Below the pieces are notes generated by a model that saw only the letters and a program-made list of their open reading frames with translations, was not told where the DNA came from and ran no database searches. 52,333 bases of DNA from a virus, in the IMG/VR virus record IMGVR_UViG_3300043446_000626, positions 1-52,333 of that record; one strand, given 5' to 3'. Numbering within the stretch: the first letter of the stretch is position 1; each line of letters begins with the position of its first letter. The translations under genes and the position numbers were made by a program. Positions 9,518-51,059 of this stretch are shown here, one piece after another.

Positions 9518-9910
9518 ATGAGTTCTGCCGTCAAAACCAACCCTGAGAAGTGGAAGCGGATCGTCGCTTCGGTCAAAGCCTCCGATAAGGGCGGAAAGCC
9601 CGGTCAGTGGAGTGCTCGGAAGGCCCAATTGGCCACTCAGAGATACAAAGGCTCTGGAGGGGGTTACAAGGGGCCGAAAAGTGCCGATAATTCGCTCTCA
9701 AAGTGGACTAAAGAGGACTGGGGAACTAGGTCCGGGAAGCCCTCCACTCAAGGCCCTGAGGCGACTGGCGAAAGGTATCTGCCCAAAACTGCTCGGGAGA
9801 AACTATCCCCGGCGGAGTACGCGGCGACAACCCGAGCCAAGCGCGAGGGGATGAAGCAGGGAAAACAGTTCGTTCCTCAGCCCGAATCGATCAAGAAAAA
9901 GGTGTGGTGA
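9518..9910 (+). CDS. DUF5872-like small basic protein
   Basis: A 130-aa, Lys/Arg-rich, Cys-free protein. Its core WTKEDWGTRSG followed by TGERYLP matches the DUF5872 pattern seen in phage and giant-virus genes. The N-terminal part (WKRIVASVKASDKGG, WSARKAQLA) is also typical. It precedes an adaptor gene by 1 bp, just as the DUF6321-like protein precedes the other adaptor. It may be a small virion or DNA-associated protein; function is unknown. Confidence 0.7.
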   Translation: MSSAVKTNPEKWKRIVASVKASDKGGKPGQWSARKAQLATQRYKGSGGGYKGPKSADNSLSKWTKEDWGTRSGKPSTQGPEATGERYLPKTAREKLSPAEYAATTRAKREGMKQGKQFVPQPESIKKKVW

Positions 9911-14793: not shown

Positions 14794-19560
<4,767 letters not shown>

Positions 19561-35579: not shown

Positions 35580-36143
35580 ATGCCACGGAAAGCCGCCAAA
35601 ACCGAGCCTTCAAAAGCCCCTGACCAAGGGGTAGATACCACCCAGGCCGCGGAAAAGCCCAGAAAGAAGACTGGGCGCCCTACAGACTACGACGAAGAGA
35701 TCGCTTCCGCTATATGCGTCCGTATCGCCAACGGACAGCCTCTAAGGCAAATATGCATGGAAGAAGGGATGCCAGTCCAATCGACGGTGTATGTTTGGTT
35801 GACTCGCTTCCCTGAGTTCGCGGAGATGTACACACGCGCCCGCGAAGATCAGGCCGATACTCTGGCTGACGAGATTCAGGCCATCGCGGACGAAACCCCG
35901 GAGATGAACCCGATCGTGGACAAGAACGGGGAACTGATCCGGATCGAGATGCACTCGGCCTACATCCAATGGCAGAAGAACCGGATCGACGCCCGCAAGT
36001 GGGTTGCGGCCAAACTGAAGCCCCGCAAGTATGGGGACAAGGTCCAGTTGTCCGGGGACGCCGAGAACCCGCTGAAGGTGGAAGCCGATGTGACCATCTT
36101 CGATACCGTCCTGAAGGGCATAGAGCAGTCCCGCCGTGGATGA
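35580..36143 (+). CDS. terS: Terminase small subunit
   Basis: A 187-aa protein. A basic, low-complexity N-terminus is followed by GRPTDYDEEIASAICVRIA, then GQPLRQICMEEGMP and STVYVWLTRFPEFAEMYTRA, the helix-turn-helix and oligomerisation pattern of Sf6/phage-type small terminases. EIQAIADETPEMNPIVD and RKWVAAKLKPRKYGDKV complete the family signature. It recognises the packaging site and regulates TerL. It overlaps terL by 8 bp. Confidence 0.88.
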   Translation: MPRKAAKTEPSKAPDQGVDTTQAAEKPRKKTGRPTDYDEEIASAICVRIANGQPLRQICMEEGMPVQSTVYVWLTRFPEFAEMYTRAREDQADTLADEIQAIADETPEMNPIVDKNGELIRIEMHSAYIQWQKNRIDARKWVAAKLKPRKYGDKVQLSGDAENPLKVEADVTIFDTVLKGIEQSRRG

Positions 36144-38469
36144 ACTTGTCGCCGTCCTGAAGGACGAGGAGATCCGGGAGAAGTTCAAGCGCCTCCCGGC
36201 TGACAGACAAGCCGCCTTTGCCTGGAGGGCGGGATGGCTCACCAAGGCTCACAAGCACCAGATCCTGCCCGACGGGGACTGGTGGAGCATCTGGCTCCTC
36301 CTGGCCGGTCGTGGAGCCGGGAAGACCAGGACGGCTGCGGAGCAGATAGGTTGGTGGGCCTGGGAGCAGCCTGGAACCCGGTGGCTCGTTGCTGCTCCGA
36401 CCTCCGCGGACGTTCGGGCTACCTGTTTTGAGGGGGATTCTGGGCTGATTGCCGTGATCCCTCCTATTCTCATCGCCGACTACAACCGGGCGTACCACGA
36501 GATCAAACTCACCAACGGCTCACTTATTAAGGGCATCCCTGCGTCTGAGCCTGAGCGCTTTCGTGGTCCTCAATTCCACGGCGGGTGGCTAGATGAACTT
36601 GCGGCTTGGGACTATCTGCAAGAGGCTTGGGATCAGATCATGTTCGGCGTGCGCCTGGGCAAGCACACCCGCATTCTGGCCACGACGACTCCTAAGCCCA
36701 AGGACTTGATCATCGACCTCATCGGCCGGGATGGTGACGATGTACAGGTCACGACAGCGAGCACTTACTCCAACCTGGACAACCTTGCTCCGTCCTTTCA
36801 GAAGCAGATCCTGCAGTACGAGGGAACGAAACTCGGCCGCCAGGAGATCTACGCTGAGATCATTGATCCTGAGGAGGGGGGTATCGTCTCCCGTGACTGG
36901 TTCCGCCTCTGGCCTGCAGACAAGCCCATCCCTAAACTGGACTTCGTCGTCCAGTCCTACGACTGCGCCTTCACTGAGAAGGCCCAGAACGATCCGACGG
37001 CAGCCATCACCTTCGGGGTCTTCCGCCAGGAGGATGGCCCTGGAAGCGTCCTGATCATCGACTGTTGGCAGGACCGCCTGCAGTATCCCGACCTCCGGCC
37101 GAAGGTCATCGATGAGTACGAGACCGTCTTCGGAGAGGGCAAGGACAAGAAGCGGGTGGATCTGGTCCTGGTCGAGGACAAGGCCGCGGGCATTTCTCTG
37201 ATACAAGACCTGCAGAGAGCACACATCCCTGTCAGGGCCTACAACCCAGGCAGGGCGGACAAGGTCCAACGCCTGTCCATCGTGGCCAACATCATCCGAG
37301 CCGGAAGAGTCTGGGTGCCCGAGAGCAGCGTCAGGAAGGGCTACGTCCGTGACTGGGCGGAAGGGATGGTCTCTCAGGTCTGCTCCTTCCCCAACACCGA
37401 CCACGACGACTTCTGCGTGGCCGAGGGCTCGATGGTGCTGATGGCCAATGGCGATTTGAAACCGATTGAGTCTGTGCGGGTAGGCGACTTTGTCCAGACC
37501 CCTAACGGCGCTCGTCGCGTCACCGCCTTCCACGACAACGGCGTCAAGGAGGTTTGGCAAGTTCAGGCTGACGGTCGCCTGCTACTGGCAACCGGCAACC
37601 ACGAGGTCTTCACGGACAGTGGGTGGATGCGTGTTGATAGTTTGAGACAAGCAGTCCATAATCTTCTGATCATTGATCAGGAGGAAATATGCCGTTCCAA
37701 AAGAAGCCGGGGGTGGTCGTTGAGGTCATTGAGTTCAATGGCCGTAAGTACCGGCGCTATCCTGAAAGCCCAAATCCGGCGCATCGTCGGTACTTTGGTC
37801 GGGCAGGGCATCGGCTGCACCGGGATGTCTGGGAGTTCCATCACGGGCCGATTCCCGATGGGATGCACGTTCACCACATTGATGGCAACACCGCGAACAA
37901 CGACATCAGCAATCTTGAGTGCGTCACTCGTGATGCCCATTGGGACGAACATCGCGCAGAACATTCAAGGCGCGGGAAGGGCAAGGAACAGTTGGAGCAC
38001 TTGGAACATATCCGATCCAAGGCCTCTGAGTGGCACAAGTCAGAAGAAGGCCGAGCGTGGCATCGAGAGCACGCAAAGCGCAGTCTCTCCAAAGTATGGG
38101 GCAAGCCTCGGGAGTTTCCTGAACTCCGCCTTAAATGCGTTTGGTGCGGCGCGGACATGGTTGGCAAGATCGCTAGGAAGAAGTTCTGCGGACCAACCTG
38201 TCAAAACGCTGAGTCCAAGTTTCGCCTCGGCAAGTCTTGTACAGAACACCCATACCACGCGGCGCGTGTTCGACCTGACAGTGGAGGGTGAGCACTGCTA
38301 CTTTGCCAACGGCATCCTGGTCCACAACTGCGATGCCTTGTCTCAAGCGCTCCGATACTTGCGGGACGCAGGTTTCTTGAACATTGATCCAGAACCTGAC
38401 GATGGCCCTGACGAGGATGATTACGCCGACGCGGGGATGAGAAAGCGGGAGAATCCATATGCGTCTTGA
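36136..38469 (+). CDS. terL: Terminase large subunit interrupted by an intein
   Basis: The 777-aa reading frame is a 472-aa packaging ATPase/nuclease plus a 305-aa intein. Walker A is GRGAGKT (58-64), Walker B is GGWLDELAAW with Asp153-Glu154, and the nuclease part includes QSYDCAFTEK and LVLVEDKAAG. The intein (427-731) splits the conserved motif TDHDDF/CDALSQAL, which carries nuclease Asp residues, so unspliced protein should lack nuclease activity. Splicing residues are intact: Cys427 at the start, TGNH in block B, VHN at the end and Cys732 as the +1 residue. Residues 518-708 hold no recognisable domain because the same DNA encodes an HNH enzyme in another frame. Confidence 0.92.
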   Translation: MDELVAVLKDEEIREKFKRLPADRQAAFAWRAGWLTKAHKHQILPDGDWWSIWLLLAGRGAGKTRTAAEQIGWWAWEQPGTRWLVAAPTSADVRATCFEGDSGLIAVIPPILIADYNRAYHEIKLTNGSLIKGIPASEPERFRGPQFHGGWLDELAAWDYLQEAWDQIMFGVRLGKHTRILATTTPKPKDLIIDLIGRDGDDVQVTTASTYSNLDNLAPSFQKQILQYEGTKLGRQEIYAEIIDPEEGGIVSRDWFRLWPADKPIPKLDFVVQSYDCAFTEKAQNDPTAAITFGVFRQEDGPGSVLIIDCWQDRLQYPDLRPKVIDEYETVFGEGKDKKRVDLVLVEDKAAGISLIQDLQRAHIPVRAYNPGRADKVQRLSIVANIIRAGRVWVPESSVRKGYVRDWAEGMVSQVCSFPNTDHDDFCVAEGSMVLMANGDLKPIESVRVGDFVQTPNGARRVTAFHDNGVKEVWQVQADGRLLLATGNHEVFTDSGWMRVDSLRQAVHNLLIIDQEEICRSKRSRGWSLRSLSSMAVSTGAILKAQIRRIVGTLVGQGIGCTGMSGSSITGRFPMGCTFTTLMATPRTTTSAILSASLVMPIGTNIAQNIQGAGRARNSWSTWNISDPRPLSGTSQKKAERGIESTQSAVSPKYGASLGSFLNSALNAFGAARTWLARSLGRSSADQPVKTLSPSFASASLVQNTHTTRRVFDLTVEGEHCYFANGILVHNCDALSQALRYLRDAGFLNIDPEPDDGPDEDDYADAGMRKRENPYAS
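37414..38328 (+). mobile_element. TerL intein, mini-intein type in frame, with out-of-frame nested HNH gene
   Basis: The N-terminal splicing domain covers residues 427 to about 515 of the TerL frame (CVAEGSMVLMANGDLKPIE, RVGDFVQTPNG, LLLATGNHEVFTDSGW). The C-terminal block is RVFDLTVEGEHCYFANG-ILVHN (709-731). Between them the TerL frame shows only Ser/Thr/Arg/Ala/Gly-rich text without domain features, yet no stop codon in about 190 codons. The HNH gene at 37689-38291 fills exactly this interval. Remove it and a splicing domain of some 115-130 residues remains, about mini-intein size. Confidence 0.9.
37689..38291 (+). CDS. HNH homing endonuclease nested out of frame inside the TerL intein
   Basis: A 200-aa protein in the +2 frame relative to terL. 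CAGGAGGAAAT immediately before its ATG is the best ribosome binding site in this region. HNH_3-type core: YRRYPESPNPAHRRYFG, LHRDVWEFHHGPIPDG, then HVHHIDGNTANNDISNLEC (His62, His63, Asn71, Asn75). A zinc ribbon follows (KCVWCGAD, KKFCGPTCQNA: Cys150, Cys153, Cys167, Cys171). The last 20 residues overlap the intein C-terminal splicing block and look less conserved. It would cut intein-less terL and promote spread of the intein. Being separate from the intein chain in translation is highly unusual. Confidence 0.9.
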   Translation: MPFQKKPGVVVEVIEFNGRKYRRYPESPNPAHRRYFGRAGHRLHRDVWEFHHGPIPDGMHVHHIDGNTANNDISNLECVTRDAHWDEHRAEHSRRGKGKEQLEHLEHIRSKASEWHKSEEGRAWHREHAKRSLSKVWGKPREFPELRLKCVWCGADMVGKIARKKFCGPTCQNAESKFRLGKSCTEHPYHAARVRPDSGG

Positions 38470-38686: not shown

Positions 38687-41600
38687 ATGGCCGACTTTGG
38701 GCGACAACTGGCAGATTTGTTGTATGGGAACCAACAGCCTCAAGAGCGTCAAAAGATCGCCCGACTCCTAGAGTCTGACCGTTTGCGCCGTTTGGCCGGG
38801 ATTGGCGAGGCTGCTACGACCTTCGGCACCGGACTGGCCGCATCTGTCCCTGCGGGGCTTGCGGGGCTTTCCCAACTGATTCCCACCCGCGGTCGTGCGC
38901 CTGATGTCAACAAGGCCGCCCAGAGGGTTGAGGACGTTCAGGGTGCTCTGACCTACCTTCCCCGCACCGAGACGGGTCAGCGGGTTCTTGAAAAGGTTGC
39001 AGGGCCTCTGGAAATGCTCGGGGCTCCTGCTGAGTTCTTGGGCGAGAAGACGCTGCAGTACACCGGCTCCCCGGCTGCTGCCACTGCCGCAAACGTCCTT
39101 CTGGACCCGGTGAACTTCATCGGGATGCCTGGGAGTGGAAAGGCCGTGAAGGCCGCAGGAAGGGCCGCCATGGCCACTCCTCGTGTCGCTGCTGAGATGG
39201 TCGGTGACATCCTGGCCCCGAAGTCACGCTTTGAAAGCCAACGGGGCGCCATCAAAATGAAGGGCGGCAACTGGTTGGCCGGTGAGGTGGAGAAGTCGAT
39301 TGAGCCTCTTCGTGCCGGTAGCCGAGCAAGACCTCCTGAGCAGCAGTTGGCGGAGATGAGGGCGCAGTACACGCCTGAGGCTCTTGAAACCTTGCCTGAA
39401 GCACTGCGTGGCGGTGTTGATACTGCTTTTGAGGTTCTTGGTGAGCAATCCGCGCTCAATAACTGGATCGACAAGAAACTCACCCGCTACATCAAGAACG
39501 AGATGGCCACGCCGGAAGACCCGGTGCGGAAGTTGGCCGAGCAGGGCATCACGCATATGCAGGGCCTTGACCAGAACGTTGATTACGTCGGCTTCGGTTT
39601 GAAGAGAAGGCGCAGTGAGGCGGGGCTTCCTGAGGGTGGTTTGGGTGAATCTCAACTTGCCAAGAACTGGGAAGTAAAGGCTGACCAAGCAATCAATATC
39701 GAAAAGGCGGGCACCCTTAGCGATCCCAACCAATGGTTTGCTGAATCCGCGCCCGATCTTTCAAGACAACTTGAGACCAACCCTTGGCTTTCAAAACTCC
39801 CGCCAGAGACGCCGGTCTATGAGACTGCGGCGACTGCAGAGTATTTCCCTCGGATGCTTGGCTTCGACCACCTGATCGACGAACTGAGGAACTCCATTGA
39901 TGCCGCGTCCGACCTTCCTGCCCGTCTGCGGTGGAAGCCCGAGGATCTGGAGAAGGTCACGATCGAACAGGCCGTCAAGCGCGTCCACGACATCAACGAG
40001 TACCGCGCAGCGAAGAAGGCGGAGGCAAACGAGGCTCTGGCCCGCAACCCTGCGACGGTGGACTACAAGACCTACGAGACTGTTCCCGGTGGCACTGAGC
40101 CCAACAAGATGGGCTTGGCGTGGAAGGAGATCAAGGCTCCTGGGGAACTTCCAGAAGGTTTGACGGAAACGGTAAGCAAGAAGCACGCACGGAACCGTGC
40201 CGGTGAGTTGGTTGATGATCCTCGCTACAAGTCACTTGAGGACGCTCTCAAGTACGAAGGCGAAGTGATGGGTCACTGCGTCGGCGGCTACTGCAACGAT
40301 GTCCTGTCGGGCGAGACAAAAATCTACTCCCTGCGGGACAAGAAGGGCGAGCCTCATGTCACGATTGAGGTTGCTCCTCCCAAAAAATACTCCTACGAAG
40401 ATGTTTTGGATATGGACAAGGAGTACATATCTTCTCTTCGGCGCAACGGAGGCGAGGACAGCGTTTCTGATTATGTGAATGCGCGTCTAGATGAACTAGA
40501 CAGCGAGCCTTCGCAAATCATCCAGATCAAAGGCAAAGGTAACCGCGCCCCCAAGGAAGAGTATCTGCCGTTCGTGCAGGACTTTGTCCGCAGCGGCAAC
40601 TGGTCACGAGTTGGAGATATTCAGAACACGGGTATGAGGGCTGCTTCATCGGTGTTCAACGAGAACGAACTGAAGAGATTGCGCGATCTTGGAGAGACAA
40701 ACATTCCGGCCATCCTGTCGGGTGCAGATATTCAGCGCCTGCACAACCTCATCACGCCTGAAGGTAAGCGCCTGATATATGACGCTCGTGGCAACATCAT
40801 TGGCGATGAAGCCCGGAGAGGCTACGCAGACGGTGGAGAAGTCACCATCCCTGACATGACGGATGGCGGCAAGGTCATTGATGGCGGGGAGTTCAAGAAG
40901 GGCGGGAAGGTCCGCATCTCCGACAATCCTGACACGATGCGCCTGGAGTTGCAGGCAGGCGGGGCCGTGAAGGCTGCAGCGAAAGCGGCCGCAAAGGTTG
41001 CCAAGGAAGAGAAACTCTCCGTCCCCTACGACATCCCTCGTGCGCCTGCCAAGACGAAGGAAGAGATCCGGCCCATCGCTCAACGCATGGCCGAGCAGAT
41101 GACGGGTGAGTTCGTCCGCCCTGACCCGAAGGTCTCGAAGAACCCTGCAGGCAAGACCTATCAGCAGTTCCTCATGGAGCGTGAACTGGAAGGGCGTCAC
41201 CAGTACCGCCCAACCAAGGAAGTGCAGGAGCCTTCGGTCGCTGACATTGAGAAGCAAAAGGGCATGGTGAAGATGGGCGTCTCTGGCGACACCACCATGG
41301 CCGATGTAGAGTTGCTCCGCGCAGGCCCGTACCAATTGGGAGATCCGGCTCCCCTGCACGGAGGCCCGCGGTTCCCGTTGGGTGGTGAAGGCTCCTGGGC
41401 ATCCAACAACCCGATTGCAGCGAATGTGCAGCGCCGGGTGGGTGAGATATCTCAGTTCTTCGACGCGCCGGTCTTAGGTCAATACATGAGCATGGGTCCG
41501 TCTGGCTCTATGTTCGCGCAGCATCTGGCCGATGCCAACCTGCAGGCCATCGACCTGTCGAAGATGAGCAAGCGGCAGATCGAGCAGTTCAACAAGTTGA

Positions 41601-42415
41601 TCCGCGCCGGAGATGAGAAGTCTGGCCCCCGGCCTACGTTCCCTGGCATTCAGGACAAGGAAGAAGCCTACCTGTGGATGGCGTTCGATCCGAAGTTGCG
41701 GATTCACTTCAACAGCCTGATGCAGAAGCCTACGGTGACCGAGGCGCTGAACCTGCCTGATGGCCGAATCATCCTCGACGCCGTCACCGAGCCGGAGTTG
41801 CGGAACAAGGAGATCATGACCTCTGGTCTGTCTCAGTTCCAGTTCGATCCGAGCATCCGGCCGGAAGATCTCTCGCTTTCGATGCACCCGACCTACACGC
41901 ACCTGATCCCGATGAAGCAGGGCGCTCCGGTCACCCGTACTCGTTACCCGACCCCGGCAGAACTTGAGTTCTCCGATGTGGCCAACTTCATCCGCCAGAA
42001 CTACCCCGCCAAGGAGTTCACCCGCGTAATGCAGACCGGCAGCCCTCGCCAGTTGATCGATCAGCAAGCGATTGATGAGATCAAGATGTTCGAGGAGTTC
42101 ATGAAGCAGTACACCGGCAAGAAGAAGGGCGGGGCGGTGAAGATGCAGGCGGGTGGCGCCATCAAGGCTGCCGCAAAGGCCGTCAAGCCTACTGCCGAGC
42201 AAGCCGCACGTTTGGCTGCTTTGCGCGAGAAGATAGTTCCCCGCGGTGAACTGTCCAAGAAGATCATGGAAGAGAACCTCGACAAGCCTCTGAGCGAGAT
42301 CGAAGAGGGCGGCCTGACCAAGGCCCTGGAGGCTCTGCCCAAGAAAAAGGGCGGCAAGGTGAAGTTCACCGACAACCTCGACGCCATGCGACTGGCTGTC
42401 CAGAAGAGAAAGTAA
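38687..42415 (+). CDS. Giant polyvalent protein with a PcfJ-like domain
   Basis: A 1242-aa multidomain protein. The N-terminus is membrane-like in parts (TTFGTGLAASVPAGLAGL). Around residues 526-565, GHCVGGYCNDVLSGETKIYSL (in parts MGHCVGGY, SGETKIYSLRD) and HVTIEVAPP match the PcfJ-like core found in conjugative elements and phage polyvalent proteins; IIQIKGKGNRAPKEEYLPF follows. Two segments end in similar text, KVRISDNPDTMRL near 745 and KVKFTDNLDAMRL at the C-terminus, suggesting duplication or fusion. Several KKGG motifs recur (FKKGGKV, KKKGGAV, KKKGGKV). Polyvalent proteins are often injected with DNA to counter host defence; that role is an inference here. Confidence 0.72.
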   Translation: MADFGRQLADLLYGNQQPQERQKIARLLESDRLRRLAGIGEAATTFGTGLAASVPAGLAGLSQLIPTRGRAPDVNKAAQRVEDVQGALTYLPRTETGQRVLEKVAGPLEMLGAPAEFLGEKTLQYTGSPAAATAANVLLDPVNFIGMPGSGKAVKAAGRAAMATPRVAAEMVGDILAPKSRFESQRGAIKMKGGNWLAGEVEKSIEPLRAGSRARPPEQQLAEMRAQYTPEALETLPEALRGGVDTAFEVLGEQSALNNWIDKKLTRYIKNEMATPEDPVRKLAEQGITHMQGLDQNVDYVGFGLKRRRSEAGLPEGGLGESQLAKNWEVKADQAINIEKAGTLSDPNQWFAESAPDLSRQLETNPWLSKLPPETPVYETAATAEYFPRMLGFDHLIDELRNSIDAASDLPARLRWKPEDLEKVTIEQAVKRVHDINEYRAAKKAEANEALARNPATVDYKTYETVPGGTEPNKMGLAWKEIKAPGELPEGLTETVSKKHARNRAGELVDDPRYKSLEDALKYEGEVMGHCVGGYCNDVLSGETKIYSLRDKKGEPHVTIEVAPPKKYSYEDVLDMDKEYISSLRRNGGEDSVSDYVNARLDELDSEPSQIIQIKGKGNRAPKEEYLPFVQDFVRSGNWSRVGDIQNTGMRAASSVFNENELKRLRDLGETNIPAILSGADIQRLHNLITPEGKRLIYDARGNIIGDEARRGYADGGEVTIPDMTDGGKVIDGGEFKKGGKVRISDNPDTMRLELQAGGAVKAAAKAAAKVAKEEKLSVPYDIPRAPAKTKEEIRPIAQRMAEQMTGEFVRPDPKVSKNPAGKTYQQFLMERELEGRHQYRPTKEVQEPSVADIEKQKGMVKMGVSGDTTMADVELLRAGPYQLGDPAPLHGGPRFPLGGEGSWASNNPIAANVQRRVGEISQFFDAPVLGQYMSMGPSGSMFAQHLADANLQAIDLSKMSKRQIEQFNKLIRAGDEKSGPRPTFPGIQDKEEAYLWMAFDPKLRIHFNSLMQKPTVTEALNLPDGRIILDAVTEPELRNKEIMTSGLSQFQFDPSIRPEDLSLSMHPTYTHLIPMKQGAPVTRTRYPTPAELEFSDVANFIRQNYPAKEFTRVMQTGSPRQLIDQQAIDEIKMFEEFMKQYTGKKKGGAVKMQAGGAIKAAAKAVKPTAEQAARLAALREKIVPRGELSKKIMEENLDKPLSEIEEGGLTKALEALPKKKGGKVKFTDNLDAMRLAVQKRK

Positions 42416-42418
42416 ACC

Positions 42419-44932
42419 ATGGCCACTGAATTCCCTATCGAACCCGAGTACGGCCGTTTCATCGAAGGCATGGCCGACGAAGAGCAAGAAGGCATTGAAG
42501 TCGAACTGCCCGAAGACGAGGCGGAGATTGAAGAACTCCCGGACGGGTCTGCCATCGTCAAGATGGACACCAAGGGCCCGGAGGAAGATCAGGACTTCTA
42601 CGCCAACCTTGCTGAGGAACTGGACGAACTCGAACTGTCCACCATCGCTCTGCGGTACATCAAACTTGTCGACATGGACAAGCGTGCCCGTGAGGAGCGC
42701 GACAAGCAGTACGAAGAGGGCCTGAAGCGCACCGGCATGGGCAAGGACGCTCCTGGCGGGGCTACCTTTATGGGCGCTTCCAAGGTGGTTCATCCGGTGA
42801 TGGCCGAGGCTTGCGTGGACTTTGCCTCCCGAGCCATCAAGGAACTGTTCCCGCCTGATGGTCCTGTCCGCACCAAGATCATGGGTGAGGTGGACGAGGA
42901 GAAAGTTCAGAAGGCCGAGCGCAAGCGCGACTACATGAACTGGCAGTTGACGGAGCAAATCGAAGAGTTCCGCGACGAGCAGGAGCAACTCCTGACTCAG
43001 TTGCCTCTCGGCGGGTCTCAGTACCTCAAACTCTGGTACGACGACGACAAGAAGCGCCCCTGCGCTGAGTTTGTCCCGATCGACCGGATGATCGTGCCGT
43101 TTGCCGCGACGAACTTCTATACCGCTCAACGCGCCACCGAGATTCACGAGATCACCGAGTGGGAATTTAAGCGCCGCATCCGTTCGGGGATGTACAAAGA
43201 CATCTCCCTGGTCCGCGCCACGATGGAGCCTGAGGAATCCAAGGCTCAGAAGGCCAACAACAAGATTGAGGGCCGCAAGTGGGATGAGAACGAAGACGGT
43301 CTTCGGAACGTCTATCACATCTACACATGGCTCGAATTGGAAGGCGACAGCCGCTCTAAGGGTGCGATGGCTCCCTACATCCTGATGATCGATGACCTTG
43401 AGAATGAGGTCGTGGGTCTGTACCGTAACTGGGAGGATGGGGACGAGACGATGACAAAACTCGACTGGGTGGTCGAGTTCAAGTTCATCCCCTGGCGCGG
43501 GGCTTACGCGATCGGCCTTCCGCACTTGATCGGTGGTCTGTCCGCAGCACTGACGGGCGCTCTGCGGGCCCTGCTCGATACGGCTCACATCAACAACTCG
43601 GCCACGATGCTGAAGTTGAAGGGCGCGAAGGTCTCTGGCCAGAGTGTTCAGCCCGATGTGACACAGGTGATCGAGATCGAGGCGGCTCCTGGCATTGACG
43701 ACATCAAGAAGATCGCCATGCCCATGCCGTTCAATCCGCCCTCTCCGGTGCTGATGGAACTCCTGGGATGGTTGGATAAAGCCGCCAAGGGCGTGGTGAC
43801 GACCGCGGAAGAGAAGATTGCCGACATCAACAGTAATTCCCCGGTGGGGACGACACAGGCCCTGATCGAGCAGGGTGCTGCGGTCTTCTCGGCCATCCAT
43901 GCACGCCTGCACGACTCTCAGAGCCGGGTGCTGAAGATCCTTGGTCGTCTGAACCGGTGGTATCTGGACGATCAGCGCAAGGGTGAGGTGATCGAAGACC
44001 TGGAGATCGAGCGCACGGACTTCAACCGCAATACTGATGTGGTTCCTGTCTCTGATCCGCACATCTTCTCCGAGACGCAGCGGATGGCCCAGATCCAGGC
44101 TGTCCTGGCTCGGGCCGAGAAGAACCCGGACCTGTACGACCGTCGGGCGGTGGAAGAGCGGTTCCTGAAGCAGTTGAAGATCCCCGGCATCAACGAGATC
44201 CTCAAAGACACCCCGATGCCTGAGGAACTCAACGCCGCGGACGAGAACGTGGCCATGGCCCTGGGTCGGAATGCCTTTGCCTACATTCAGCAGGACCATC
44301 TGGCCCACATTCAGACCCACCTGGACTTCGCCCTGAACCCGGCTTTCGGCAGCAATCCGATCATGGCCTCGTTCTACCTGCCGCGGGCTCTGGAGCACAT
44401 CAAGCAGCACATGGTGCTGTGGTATCTCAACCGCACCAACGCCTATGTGAGCAAGGTTCGGGATGGTGAGCCGGTGACGGAAGCCGAATACGAGAACGTC
44501 CGCCTGACCGCGGAACTGGACAAGGTGTTCTCTGTGGCCACGCAGCACGTTCAGAAGGACTCTGAGAAGGCTTTTGCCAAGATCGTGCCGCTGATTCAGC
44601 AACTCCTGCAGGCCATGCAGCAACTCTCGCCGCAGCCGCCGATGCCTCCAGAGGCTCAGGTGCTCATGCAGACCTCCATGGCCGAGACGCAGCGTCGGGC
44701 GCAGCGTGACCAGGGCGATTTGGCTCTGAATCAGCAGCGCCTGCAGATCGAAGCAGAAGAAAAGGCCGCTCGTCGGCAACTGGATGTTGCACTCAATGCG
44801 TCAGACAACCTGACCAGAGAGCGCATCGAAACGGCGCGTCTGACCCAACGGGATGATGCGCTGCAAGCAGAGCAGTTCGAAACTGCAATCCGCCTCCAAC
44901 AGGAGGCTCAACGTAATCTCGGAGGCATTTGA
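42419..44932 (+). CDS. Portal protein
   Basis: An 837-aa protein resembling the large portals of SU10-like and other short-tailed phages. An acidic N-terminal extension is followed by GASKVVHPVMAEACVDFASR, then ELFPPDGPVRTK, and a stem/crown region with KYLK-type helices (SQYLKLWYDD, FVPIDRMIVPF). The C-terminal half (DFNRNTDVVPVSDPHIFSE, ERFLKQLKIPGINEIL) and a long charged helical tail of about 90 residues complete it. It forms the 12-fold DNA gate through which TerL packages. Position after terL and before the scaffold is classical. The stop overlaps the next ATG. Confidence 0.9.
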   Translation: MATEFPIEPEYGRFIEGMADEEQEGIEVELPEDEAEIEELPDGSAIVKMDTKGPEEDQDFYANLAEELDELELSTIALRYIKLVDMDKRAREERDKQYEEGLKRTGMGKDAPGGATFMGASKVVHPVMAEACVDFASRAIKELFPPDGPVRTKIMGEVDEEKVQKAERKRDYMNWQLTEQIEEFRDEQEQLLTQLPLGGSQYLKLWYDDDKKRPCAEFVPIDRMIVPFAATNFYTAQRATEIHEITEWEFKRRIRSGMYKDISLVRATMEPEESKAQKANNKIEGRKWDENEDGLRNVYHIYTWLELEGDSRSKGAMAPYILMIDDLENEVVGLYRNWEDGDETMTKLDWVVEFKFIPWRGAYAIGLPHLIGGLSAALTGALRALLDTAHINNSATMLKLKGAKVSGQSVQPDVTQVIEIEAAPGIDDIKKIAMPMPFNPPSPVLMELLGWLDKAAKGVVTTAEEKIADINSNSPVGTTQALIEQGAAVFSAIHARLHDSQSRVLKILGRLNRWYLDDQRKGEVIEDLEIERTDFNRNTDVVPVSDPHIFSETQRMAQIQAVLARAEKNPDLYDRRAVEERFLKQLKIPGINEILKDTPMPEELNAADENVAMALGRNAFAYIQQDHLAHIQTHLDFALNPAFGSNPIMASFYLPRALEHIKQHMVLWYLNRTNAYVSKVRDGEPVTEAEYENVRLTAELDKVFSVATQHVQKDSEKAFAKIVPLIQQLLQAMQQLSPQPPMPPEAQVLMQTSMAETQRRAQRDQGDLALNQQRLQIEAEEKAARRQLDVALNASDNLTRERIETARLTQRDDALQAEQFETAIRLQQEAQRNLGGI

Positions 44933-45701: not shown

Positions 45702-46652
45702 ATGGATCCCAATAAGGATCAAGAACCCCAAATTGAAGTCAAGGAGGCTATGGATGGCTCTGCCGTTGTAGAACTCCCTGATGATCTGGCGGCGCAGGAA
45801 GGCGCCCCAGAGCCCCAGGAAGCCGCTCCTGACTCAAACGACGAAGATGCGGATTCCCCTGGCGATTCAGACGCTCTAAGGGATGCAAAACGCGCCCGCC
45901 GTCGCGCCAAGCGTGAACTGGTCAAAAAGACCAACTCCGAGAAGGACGCCCGCCTGCAGGTTTTGCAGCGCAAGGTGGACGAACTGACTCAGCGCTTGTC
46001 CGTAACCGAGAGCAAGACTCACTCGGCCGATCTGGCCCGCCTGGACAAGACCATCGAGGATTCGGAACTGCGTCTGCAGTACGCCCGGATGAAGATGTCT
46101 GAGGCCACCAGTTCTCAGGACGGGGAAGCCTTCGCCAAGGCCCAGGAGATGTGGTACGACGCCCGCAAGCAGGTTGAAGACCTCAAGCGGTTCCGCGAGA
46201 CGGCCGCCACTCCCCGGCAGCAGGCCAGTATTCCCGACCCCAACCTGCAGCGACTGGCCGCGGACTGGATGGAGCGGAATCGTTGGTACAAACCCGATAA
46301 CAAGGATACCGACAGCAAGATCGCCAAGCAAATTGACGAATCCCTGACGGCCGAAGGTTGGGATCCAACCTCGGAAGAGTATTGGGACGAACTCGATAAT
46401 CGCTTGCAGCGGTATCTCCCCCATCGCTACAATCAACAGGAAGACGAGACTTCATCTCGACGGAGTAGGCCGAGGAATATTGTGACTGGGTCTGGACGCG
46501 AATCATCTCCTGCCGCAGGCGGTAGGAACACCTTCACTCTCACGCCCGAACAGGTGCGTGCGATGAAGGACGCGGGTTTTTGGGATGACCCCCAGAAGCG
46601 CGCCAAGATGATCAAGCGTTATGCCCAAGAAGCCCGGAACTACAGGAGTTAA
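45702..46652 (+). CDS. Scaffolding protein
   Basis: A 316-aa protein with an acidic, disordered N-terminus (EAAPDSNDEDADSPGDSD), a long coiled-coil middle (LQVLQRKVDELTQRLS, then RLDKTIEDSELRLQYAR), and a basic C-terminal end (AGFWDDPQKRAKMIKRYAQE) that would bind capsid subunits. Composition, length and place before the capsid gene are those of internal scaffolds. No protease domain is visible in the genome, so removal probably occurs by exit rather than cleavage. Confidence 0.82.
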   Translation: MDPNKDQEPQIEVKEAMDGSAVVELPDDLAAQEGAPEPQEAAPDSNDEDADSPGDSDALRDAKRARRRAKRELVKKTNSEKDARLQVLQRKVDELTQRLSVTESKTHSADLARLDKTIEDSELRLQYARMKMSEATSSQDGEAFAKAQEMWYDARKQVEDLKRFRETAATPRQQASIPDPNLQRLAADWMERNRWYKPDNKDTDSKIAKQIDESLTAEGWDPTSEEYWDELDNRLQRYLPHRYNQQEDETSSRRSRPRNIVTGSGRESSPAAGGRNTFTLTPEQVRAMKDAGFWDDPQKRAKMIKRYAQEARNYRS

Positions 46653-47828: not shown

Positions 47829-48746
47829 ATGGCAGCCCCGATGCGCAGTACAGACTTTCGGTCAATCGTTGAGCCGATCCTCAACGAATGCTTCGATGGT
47901 GTGTACGACCAACGCGCCGACGAATGGTCGCGTGTTTTCCGCGAGCAAGAAGGCATTCCTCGCAACTATCACGAAGAGCCGGTCCTTTATGGATTTGGCG
48001 CAGCGCCCCAACTGCCTGATGGCACTCCGGTGACCTATCAGCAGGGTGGCGTGCTCTTCCTCAAGCGTTATGTGTACCGGGTGTATGGCTTGGCCTTCGC
48101 TCTGACCAAGGTGCTCGTGGAAGACGGCGACCATATCCGTATCGGTCAGGTCTATGCCCGTCACCTCGCACAGTCCCTGGTTGAGACCAAGGAAACCCTG
48201 TGCGCCAACGTGCTGAACAACGCCTTCACGGGCGGCCAGTACGCAGGCGGCGACGGCGTGGCTCTGAACAGCGCTTCGCACCCGATCGTGAACGGCACGT
48301 TCTCCAACCTGCTGACGACTGCAGCCAACCTGTCCCAGACCTCTCTGGAGCAGATGCTGATTCAGATCCGTCAGGCTGTGGACAACAACGGCAAGAAGAT
48401 CCGTCTGGTTCCCCGCCAACTGGTGGTGGCTCCTGGCAACATCTTCCAGGCCGAAGTGCTGCTGAAGTCCGTGCTGCGTGCCGGTAACGCGAACAACGAC
48501 ATCAACCCGGTCAAGTCGATTGGCTTGCTCGACGAGGGTGCCGCTGTTCTGTCGCGTCTGACCTCTCCCACCGCATGGTGGGTGCAGACCGACGCACCGG
48601 AAGGCATGAAGTTGCTGATGCGCCGTCGTTTGGAGAAGACGATGGAAGGGGACTTTGAGACCGACACCATGCGGTACAAGGCCACCGAGCGTTACGACGT
48701 TGGCTTCACCGATCCTCGCGCCCTTTATGGCACTCCTGGGGTTTGA
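47829..48746 (+). CDS. Major capsid protein (HK97 fold)
   Basis: A 305-aa protein. Features of the HK97-type capsid family: DFRSIVEPILNECFDGVY at the N-terminus, the long helix (SQTSLEQMLIQIRQAVDNNG), RLVPRQLVVAPGNIFQAE, and a C-terminal RYKATERYDVGFTDPRALYG, the usual ending. There is no long N-terminal delta domain, consistent with use of a separate scaffold. It probably needs GroEL plus the phage GroES-like protein for folding. Confidence 0.88.
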   Translation: MAAPMRSTDFRSIVEPILNECFDGVYDQRADEWSRVFREQEGIPRNYHEEPVLYGFGAAPQLPDGTPVTYQQGGVLFLKRYVYRVYGLAFALTKVLVEDGDHIRIGQVYARHLAQSLVETKETLCANVLNNAFTGGQYAGGDGVALNSASHPIVNGTFSNLLTTAANLSQTSLEQMLIQIRQAVDNNGKKIRLVPRQLVVAPGNIFQAEVLLKSVLRAGNANNDINPVKSIGLLDEGAAVLSRLTSPTAWWVQTDAPEGMKLLMRRRLEKTMEGDFETDTMRYKATERYDVGFTDPRALYGTPGV

Positions 48747-48813: not shown

Positions 48814-49482
48814 ATGCCGGAGAAATGTCATGTTCATAACTGCACTCAGCCTGCAATTGCCAAAGGCTTATGCCGCAAGCATTACATGCGGGTGCAGCGT
48901 CACGGAGATGTTGGTGAAAGTCGTCCAGATGATTGGGGGAAGCGCGAAAAGCATCCGGCTTACAAGTCGTGGTGTGGATTGCGTCGATACCATCGCCTGG
49001 ACATGCAAGAGTCTTGGCGGGAAGATTTTTGGGCATTTGTCAAAGATGTTCCAAAGAGGCCCGAAAAAGCAATTGCATGGAGACCTGAGCCAACAAAGCC
49101 TTGGGGCAAAGACAACTTTTATTGGAAAGAAAACAGGGCTTGCTCTGAAGACTACAAAGAGTACATGCGTGAGTGGCATCGTAAATCGCGTGCCGCAAAC
49201 CCGGACTACTATTTGGCGCAAGACCTTCGCAGAAATTACGGCGTCACTCTTGAGTGGTACCGTGAGCAACTTTCCAAGCAAAACAATGTCTGCGCTATCT
49301 GCAAGCAGCCCGAAACGGCTGTCATTCGCGGCAAGGTGATTGCAATGCCAGTCGATCACGATCACACTACAGGCAAGGCAAGAGGATTGCTTTGCACCAA
49401 GTGCAACCGTGGTCTTGGCTTGTTCCGAGACAACACTGACTTTCTCAAAGCGGCCATTTCATACCTGAACTCCACTTTTTAA
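48814..49482 (+). CDS. Endonuclease VII-like HNH enzyme (homing type)
   Basis: A 222-aa protein inserted between the capsid and a small structural gene. Near the C-terminus NVCAICKQPE (Cys160, Cys163), VDHDHTTGKARGLLCTKCNRG (Asp181, His182, His184; Cys194, Cys197) and LFRDNTDFLKAAISYL follow the T4 endonuclease VII pattern. The N-terminus is a separate zinc-type motif (CHVHNCTQPAIAKGLC, then HYMRVQRHGD). AT content is raised, as in the GIY-YIG genes. Such free-standing enzymes are often mobile; a resolvase role is less likely since RusA is present. Confidence 0.85.
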   Translation: MPEKCHVHNCTQPAIAKGLCRKHYMRVQRHGDVGESRPDDWGKREKHPAYKSWCGLRRYHRLDMQESWREDFWAFVKDVPKRPEKAIAWRPEPTKPWGKDNFYWKENRACSEDYKEYMREWHRKSRAANPDYYLAQDLRRNYGVTLEWYREQLSKQNNVCAICKQPETAVIRGKVIAMPVDHDHTTGKARGLLCTKCNRGLGLFRDNTDFLKAAISYLNSTF

Positions 49483-49493
49483 GGAGAAAGACA

Positions 49494-49943
49494 ATGGCAC
49501 AAACGTATATTGGCTCGACGCTTCGCACCGGCTCCGGCACTCTGACGGATACCGTCGATGGCGGTTTTGTCCTTACGGCGCAGACCACCACGGTGACCAC
49601 GGTCTCCGCGGGAACTGCCGTCACGAGCAGCGTTACCCTTCCGTCCGGCTCGCAGATCATCAACATCTTCATCGATCAAATGGTGGATGAGGTTGTTGGT
49701 GGTGGTTCCGCTACGGCGATCAACGCAACGGTTGGCACCGCGGCGGCAGGCACTCAATATGTGTCTGCTACCAACGTCATTTCCGGTGGCCGCGCTTCTA
49801 TCACCTTCACGACTGCCCAACTTCTGGCCATGAGTGACATTGGCGCCAATACTGGCGTTTATTTCACGATTGCCCCGAACGGCACTATCAGCACCACTCA
49901 GGGTGTGTACCGCTTCACGGTGGTGTACGCCCAGAAGGTCTAA
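49494..49943 (+). CDS. Small beta-rich structural protein
   Basis: A 149-aa, Thr/Ser/Val-rich protein behind AAGGAGAAAGAC. Mostly beta strands (GFVLTAQTTTVTTVSAGTAV, SQIINIFIDQMVDEV, GVYRFTVVYAQKV). It probably lies on the capsid or connector. No family recalled with certainty. Confidence 0.6.
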   Translation: MAQTYIGSTLRTGSGTLTDTVDGGFVLTAQTTTVTTVSAGTAVTSSVTLPSGSQIINIFIDQMVDEVVGGGSATAINATVGTAAAGTQYVSATNVISGGRASITFTTAQLLAMSDIGANTGVYFTIAPNGTISTTQGVYRFTVVYAQKV

Positions 49944-49952
49944 GGAGGCATC

Positions 49953-51059
49953 ATGGGCCAATTCAAACCGATGGTCAAAATGATGACCACCGAGCCCTCT
50001 ATTGAGTTGAAACTCAAGAAGGGTGGCGCTGTTTCTCATCCTAAAAAGATGATGAACGGCGGCGTCATGAGTGGTCTGGCTGCGGCTCCGTCTGCAGCAC
50101 CTGCTCGTGGCGGTATGGCGCCCGCTCGTCGTCCTGCCGCTCCGTCTATGGCTGCTCGTCGGGCCGCCATGATGGGTCGTCCGATGATGAAGGAGGGTGG
50201 CGAAACTCCGAAGGAGCACAAGGCTGAGATGAAGGCCCTCAAGGGTCTGAAGTCTGAGTTGAAGTCTCACGAGGGCAAGCCTGCCTCCAAGGCCCACAAG
50301 GGTCTTGCAACGGGCGGCGTGGTCATGGGCCAAGGCGGCTTCAAAAAGGGTGGCAAGGTCAAGATGGCCGAGGGTGGCGTTCCCAAGAGCGGCATCCTGC
50401 CTGTGGCTGAGTCTGAGCGCGGTGGTGGCAAGTATGTCTCCACCAAGATGAACACGGCTGAAGGCGAGCACCACACTCCCAAGAAGACCGGCGAGGTCAA
50501 GATGGGCAATGCCGGTGGCTACAAGAAGGGCGGCAAGGCTTGCTATGCCAAGGGCGGCGGCGTGGAGGGTAATGTCTCCACGACTCCTCCCGGCGTGACC
50601 AACACCACCACTGGTGAGGTTCGCAAAGGCAATGCGGGTGGCTTCAAGAAAGGCGGCTCCGCAAAAAAAGCCTTCGCGGCGGGGGGCAGTGTTAACGACT
50701 CTGGTCGTCCCGTCGCGTACCCGGCCAAGCCCGTCTCTAAGTCGGTGAAGAACAATCTCCAGTCGGGGACGTTCAAGAAGGGCGGCTCGATCAAGATGAA
50801 CAAAGGCGGCATCCCCGCCGAGGCTCAATCTGCGATCAAGCAAGCCGATGCTGAACGCGCCTACCGCGACTACGAGAAGGCCGAGGAAGCCGAGAACAAG
50901 GCAATGCGTGACTCCATCCTTGGAGCCCCAAAGCGGATGTTTGAGGCTGCCAAGGGTCTGTTCTCCGGCAAGGAGGCTCCTTCGGGAAGTGTGACCAAGA
51001 CTGAAAAGTCTGTAACTGTCACCCCTTCCAAGAAGCGGGGCGGATCGGTAAAGTGCTGA
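49953..51059 (+). CDS. Lys/Gly-rich repeat protein with KKGG motifs
   Basis: A 368-aa, very basic protein. Repeats combine GNAGGYKKGGKACYAKGGG and GNAGGFKKGGSAKKAFAAGG (each led by TGEVKM or TGEVRK), with further KKGG-V/I/A hits at LKKGGAV, FKKGGKV and FKKGGSI. There is no catalytic motif. The charge suggests contact with packaged DNA or a membrane. The same KKGG pattern is in the polyvalent protein, and EGG forms occur in the 1507-aa protein. It may be packaged inside the head. A terminator hairpin follows. Confidence 0.65.
   Translation: MGQFKPMVKMMTTEPSIELKLKKGGAVSHPKKMMNGGVMSGLAAAPSAAPARGGMAPARRPAAPSMAARRAAMMGRPMMKEGGETPKEHKAEMKALKGLKSELKSHEGKPASKAHKGLATGGVVMGQGGFKKGGKVKMAEGGVPKSGILPVAESERGGGKYVSTKMNTAEGEHHTPKKTGEVKMGNAGGYKKGGKACYAKGGGVEGNVSTTPPGVTNTTTGEVRKGNAGGFKKGGSAKKAFAAGGSVNDSGRPVAYPAKPVSKSVKNNLQSGTFKKGGSIKMNKGGIPAEAQSAIKQADAERAYRDYEKAEEAENKAMRDSILGAPKRMFEAAKGLFSGKEAPSGSVTKTEKSVTVTPSKKRGGSVKC

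Follow-up and report, generated by a model that had tools for sequence, protein, structure and literature searches.

A short GG-x-V motif on diverse head-module proteins of an environmental tailed-phage lineage: a candidate virion address

Introduction

Why should one predicted phage protein carry the same short motif five times, and why should that motif recur in otherwise unrelated proteins of the same virus? The question arises from the window, by which we mean the whole stretch of 52,333 nucleotides analysed here (IMG/VR virus record IMGVR_UViG_3300043446_000626, positions 1 to 52,333). An initial annotation had described KKGG-hydrophobic units in a 368-aa protein, here called p368, and in other proteins of the virion module. 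It proposed that they form a common tag, serving packaging into the head, DNA contact or processing after GG. In the open-access literature searched, we found neither a paper on the motif nor virion proteomics for any member of the lineage.

Results

The p368 gene and its repeated units are located as follows.

49953-51059, plus strand: p368, multi-KKGG protein of 368 aa with an ATG start; basic (pI 10.2, +39), mostly predicted disordered
50016-50027, plus strand: KKGG unit 1 (KLKKGGAV), closing the near-invariant p368 N-terminus MGQFKPMVKMMTTEPSIELKLKKGG
50343-50354, plus strand: KKGG unit 2 (FKKGGKVKMAEGG)
50523-50534, plus strand: KKGG unit 3 (YKKGGKACYAKGG)
50646-50657, plus strand: KKGG unit 4 (FKKGGSAKKAFAAGG)
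50775-50786, plus strand: KKGG unit 5 (FKKGGSIKMNKGG)
51033-51044, plus strand: KRGG at the C-terminal end (KKRGGSVKC-stop)

At least five units had been claimed for p368, and the count bears this out. There are exactly five KKGG, each followed by x-[VIA] (GG at residues 24, 133, 193, 234 and 277), and a sixth unit, KRGG at residues 361-364, near the C-terminus. When the protein was shuffled 5000 times, KKGG-x-[VIA] occurred 0.05 times on average and never more than twice, against five in the real protein. The 88 distinct homologues share a near-fixed N-terminus, MGQFKPMVKMxTTEPSxELKLKKGG, and they keep the KKGG blocks while the linkers differ in length and sequence. We define the p368 family by this N-terminus, written MGQFKPMxKMxTTEPSxELKLKKGG, together with multiple KKGG beside a major capsid protein (MCP) gene; the protein of the window has both.

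Codon use in the family indicates what is being conserved. At 341 KKGG sites from 94 homologues the two Lys codons are used about equally (near 1:1), a Shine-Dalgarno-like string was found at 0/341, and GGC or GGT invariably encodes the first Gly, never GGA or GGG (which make up 10% at the second). Because of the even Lys codons, the GGC/GGT rule and the lack of such strings, we conclude that selection acts on the protein; with the 88 homologues, they mark the reading frame as genuine. AAGGAGG can be read as KKGG, and the same 0/341 led us to reject internal ribosome-binding sites as the origin of the p368 units. A 582-aa antisense open reading frame overlying p368 was also rejected as purely mechanical, with both conservation and the codon pattern against it. 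The bias at the first Gly codon perhaps reflects avoidance of internal Shine-Dalgarno sequences or of the slippery A-AAA-AAG-G.

An AlphaFold2 model of p368, built with 14 homologues, has a mean pLDDT of 45.6 and three helices between motifs. Every KKGG site falls in low-confidence coil, and the model is consistent with disorder. Profile searches against Pfam and PHROGs gave no significant family match for p368, and sequence searches of the PDB with p368 and with the capsid protein found nothing.

The gene lies within a head module whose order is terminase, a large motif-bearing protein, portal, a GroES-like protein, a scaffold-like protein, two small proteins, the capsid protein, a cement-like protein, p368, small proteins and the adaptor. 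Four of its members matter below.

42419-44932, plus strand: portal protein, a lineage marker (phrog_1216, 2.3e-20)
45702-46652, plus strand: 316-aa scaffold-like protein with an acidic N-terminus (-11 over 70 residues); role inferred from position
47829-48746, plus strand: major capsid protein (HK97/Mu gpT-like), a lineage marker (PF25209, 3.1e-13)
49494-49943, plus strand: 149-aa protein, placed like the protein annotated as cement in phage DSL-LC04

A scan of IMG/VR for capsid-protein relatives, a recruitment unbiased as to p368, gave 80 loci; of these, 64 reach 3 kb or more past the capsid gene, and all 64 have a p368 homologue beginning 0.5-1.8 kb downstream of that gene. In most of these MCP-recruited relatives a motif bearer lies between terminase and portal as well. 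These large proteins are very different in sequence from one relative to the next, with the motif retained at junctions and ends. The capsid protein of Caulobacter phage GB2A is 77% identical to that of the window; in the 32.5 kb examined this phage has no KKGG protein and no motif bearer between terminase and portal. The capsid lattice alone thus does not require the motif, and GB2A makes the capsid protein alone a less likely receptor for it.

An HNH-like open reading frame (48814-49482) sits between the capsid and cement-like genes of the window; it is absent in the relative ctpbd312, and in GB2A this site is occupied by an annotated homing endonuclease. The large terminase reading frame (36136-38469) contains an apparent intein at about residues 427-731 (Pfam Intein_splicing, Vint, Hom_end_hint). 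Terminase is of ordinary length in ctpbd312 and split by another gene in GB2A.

Two further large proteins of the window had been said to carry the motif or related forms of it.

38687-42415, plus strand: 1242-aa polyvalent-type protein with a PcfJ domain, between terminase and portal (Pfam PF14284, 2.5e-8)
40826-40837, plus strand: ADGG (YADGGEV), residues 714-717 of the polyvalent protein
40895-40906, plus strand: KKGG (FKKGGKVRI) in the polyvalent protein
42122-42133, plus strand: KKGG (KKKGGAVKM) in the polyvalent protein
42344-42355, plus strand: KKGG (KKKGGKVKF), about 20 residues ahead of the C-terminus of the polyvalent protein
19198-19275, plus strand: YAQGGYV, AKEGGMA and AKEGGLP in the 1507-aa protein, upstream of a segment of 23 residues (letters not shown); weak statistics

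The polyvalent protein has exactly three KKGG-x-[VIA], as annotated (GG at 739, 1148 and 1222; shuffle mean 0.011, maximum 1). PcfJ is the only named domain that Pfam found in it, and its overall charge is near neutral. The 1507-aa protein (15037-19560) is a different case. Of the two forms ascribed to it, KEGG is there twice, with one AQGG, at residues 1388-1413, but ADGG is absent and belongs to the 1242-aa protein. Its GG forms hardly exceed what its very high Gly content would give (K[KE]GG, P = 0.004; GG-x-[VIAM], P = 0.85), and it is a weak member of the motif family. It also has a long Gly-Thr tract at about residues 1130-1275, and the segment of 23 residues is C-terminal. Elsewhere in the window, a small Lys-rich protein (9518-9910; pI 10.3) matches phrog_14910 and phrog_17747; domains like it (GQWSARKAQLxAKRYKxxGGGYK) are fused to an FKKGG motif in two scanned loci, L101 and L143.

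Comparison of 73 sites in p368 homologues with 41 sites elsewhere gives a common core, [YFML]-[KA]-x-G-G-x-[VI], with a second GG in many cases 8-10 residues later. The pattern used to choose the 41 sites permits K, R, D, E, A or N at the position preceding GG, which makes the residue mix there informative: it is K in 36%, D in 24% and E in 21%, and acidic in 45%. Lysine is typical of the motif but is not part of its core, and charge is not conserved.

The motif is directional. Counted over 14 related genomes, its strict form appears in p368 54 times forward and 0 times reversed, and in other proteins 17 times against 2; a looser form gives 39 against 5 in those other proteins. These counts, the shuffles, with means of at most 0.05 for p368 and the polyvalent protein, and the reversed scans given below reject the motif as a chance product of composition. 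The motif is also concentrated. Outside p368 there are 37 motifs in 69,657 aa of terminase-to-adaptor genes and 9 in 158,864 aa elsewhere, a 9-fold difference in density (P = 4e-12, a value that treats partly homologous large proteins as independent).

A search across viral genomes, as had been suggested, extends the pattern. We scanned 2.9 million viral contigs, in which gene calls are mechanical, with degenerate DNA for FKKGGxVKM alone; this gave 99 loci, and the reversed peptide gave 1. In 91 of these 99 loci, profiles made from annotated phages detected head-module homologues (capsid, portal, terminase, adaptor or genes next to them). Among the eight without a head module, two are shorter than 2.1 kb, and four (L112, L130, L144, L169) look like a Shine-Dalgarno sequence plus ATG or other chance matches; in these the motif either precedes a start codon or is out of keeping with the family. 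Clustering of the bearers after masking of the motif gave 22 groups, of 36 to 1576 residues; some few groups are artefacts or fragments. The scan and the masked clusters together indicate one motif on many bodies within one virion lineage, and with the 9-fold density and the direction they uphold the idea of a tag common to otherwise unrelated proteins. No locus matched a degenerate pattern for the NPDTMR continuation.

The wider motif is less confined. An acidic variant occurs without lineage markers in 42 of 119 loci, so this form is not exclusive to the lineage. In other phages it is often found in large structural proteins resembling the 1507-aa one, and the core motif may therefore predate the lineage. 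Pelagibacter phage HTVC023P gp43 carries FKRGGDV. The Lys-rich and C-terminal forms, by comparison, are found almost only in one virion lineage of tailed phages.

Many bearers recovered with FKKGGxVKM end in GG-x-V-SASxRADG[CI]AxRGKT[RK]G(KR)(MI)(VI), a C-terminal tag (SASxRADG[CI]AxRGKT[RK]G) that is apparently undescribed. A scan for ADGCAxRGKT gave at least 120 loci, and 0 for the reversed pattern. Among the matches listed, 116 of 120 loci have a head module (58/58 of those of at least 8 kb). Over all loci listed, the tag lies within 35 aa of the C-terminus in 243 of 253 distinct tagged reading frames, and 74 loci have at least two tagged reading frames. The tagged bodies form 104 clusters by BLAST, which may split distant relatives. 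Up to five different small tagged proteins occur in one IMG/VR locus (for example L391, L424 and L463). Many of the tagged proteins, like the tag itself, are rich in Lys and Arg. Planktothrix phage Pag-Yong1 UMO75986.1 ends GYAKGGAVKRERYASGGMIGRDGCAKRGRTKGRFI. The first 45 residues of one tagged protein (L404:2885-4084; MPSKSKAQHNLM...) have matches among the small proteins of phiKZ-like jumbo phages (KTN4_204) and at the beginning of two PHROGs annotated as virion structural protein.

The ADGCA tag is absent from the window. In bacterial and archaeal genomes a slightly narrower tag pattern had one match, which is out of frame and hence chance; tblastn of the 33-aa tag against named phages gave no match with a query that is too short and of low complexity.

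The tag and p368 exclude one another. In 146 capsid-adaptor intervals we found p368 in 82, tagged proteins in 47, other GG-motif proteins only in 8 and none in 9; these fractions are not prevalence figures because part of the set was motif-selected. None of the 129 intervals with p368 or a tagged protein has both, an exclusion that may reflect sub-lineages. Gain and loss are modular: a DUF6321-like body occurs without the tag in 36 cases, with a C-terminal tag in 11 and with an N-terminal GG in 4 (two perhaps ahead of the start codon).

Discussion

We hold with moderate confidence that the KKGG units are a modular short linear motif for virion targeting or anchoring, of which p368 is a multivalent member; its presence in the virion, a binding partner and delivery to the host are what we infer from this reading. 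Of the three functions offered by the initial annotation, packaging or anchoring in the particle would fit the sequences best. The motif, lying in disordered segments, would bring proteins into the phage head or neck during assembly, or hold them there. A large polyvalent protein with a single copy or a few would thereby be recruited as cargo delivered with the DNA. The five to six copies in p368 would make it a multivalent protein, internal or for head completion, contacting many sites simultaneously. In sister phages, several small proteins ending in the linked C-terminal tag take the place of p368. Candidate receptors are the capsid protein, the portal and the 316-aa scaffold-like protein, whose acidic N-terminus makes it a possible partner for basic tags. 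A portable address or anchor is the simplest account of a common motif on unrelated bodies in one lineage, sited in the head module, with disordered flanks and modular gain and loss.

Other explanations deserve weighing. The motifs could make p368 and its relatives basic, flexible proteins that bind nucleic acid or condense DNA, with KKGG acting like a histone tail or other basic repeat. The charge and predicted disorder of p368 would suit such a role, as would the Lys/Arg-rich C-terminal tag and many of the tagged proteins. We nonetheless consider it unlikely. The invariant positions are GG, V/I and an aromatic or hydrophobic residue at -3; the lysines are not among them. Outside p368 an acidic residue often precedes GG, which weakens the proposed DNA contact. 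A charge effect would not be expected to give direction, and the polyvalent protein, taken in its entirety, has little net charge.

Alternatively, GG-x-V units might pair with one another, making p368 the hub of a protein mesh in the head that retains polyvalent cargo. Here p368 is multivalent and its partners have 1-3 copies, p368 accompanies every MCP-recruited relative that is long enough (most with a terminase-portal bearer too), and GB2A lacks both. Against this, sister phages have tagged proteins without p368, and the p368 monomer model has no structure at the motifs, and we find such pairing distinctly improbable. We are more sceptical again of a low-complexity linker without specific function, spread by recombination inside one phage lineage. 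It would account for motifs in disordered segments and junctions and for the strong turnover of tagged bodies, but not for protein-level conservation with synonymous codon drift, concentration in head-module genes or the fixed position of the C-terminal tag. We rate as very improbable that GG marks a site of maturation cleavage, in the manner of viruses with proteases that cleave behind GG: GG is invariant in the core and motifs lie at junctions inside large polyvalent proteins, but both flanks are conserved, some sites lie 3-5 residues from a C-terminus (FKKGGKVNW, KKRGGSVKC), p368, with as many as 18 GG sites, would be cut to pieces, and a Pfam search of a set of head-module proteins detected no peptidase domain.

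Returning to targeting or anchoring, we suggest, more tentatively, a broader version. An environmental tailed-phage lineage may use a portable address, [YF]KxGGxV internally or GG-x-V-SASxRADGCAxRGKTRG at the C-terminus, to load a large, fast-changing set of unrelated proteins into its particle, which new cargo would join by acquiring the tag. If the suggestion is true, the tag marks cargo in an abundant aquatic lineage and is a sequence-only predictor of virion cargo, and injected counter-defence proteins could be predicted in the same way. In any case, the motif ties together many hypothetical proteins outside all family databases.

How does this compare with known systems? The KGG repeat (stress-induced acidophilic repeat) and other catalogued repeats have the letters KGG in common with the motif, but no Pfam or PHROGs family reaches p368. 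In a study of phage and plasmid polyvalent proteins, those of phages were predicted to be packaged and injected (Iyer et al. 2017, PMC5512222). The 1242-aa bearer resembles them in its PcfJ domain and its place adjoining portal and terminase; our search of that paper found no shared KKGG-type tag. Neither p368 nor the small tagged proteins belong to the polyvalent class. Encapsulin cargo-loading peptides are short, rich in Gly and hydrophobic residues, often C-terminal or in disordered regions, and dock cargo inside an HK97-fold shell (PMC8346489). The MCP family of the window is HK97/gpT-like, with shell binding putative; the peptides do not match the motif in sequence, and ours is a phage with portal and DNA.

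The internal proteins of T4 are diverse, many act in counter-defence, and they are joined only by a capsid targeting sequence (CTS) that takes them into the prohead core (PMC3012670). Here, too, proteins of a single phage that are otherwise unrelated have a short sequence in common. The T4 CTS is N-terminal and single-copy, whereas the present motif is internal, repeated or C-terminal and differs in sequence. The CTS is cleaved off by the prohead protease; in the head-module proteins tested here, Pfam detects no peptidase domain. By analogy, the T4 internal proteins would be the closest parallel to the motif bearers.
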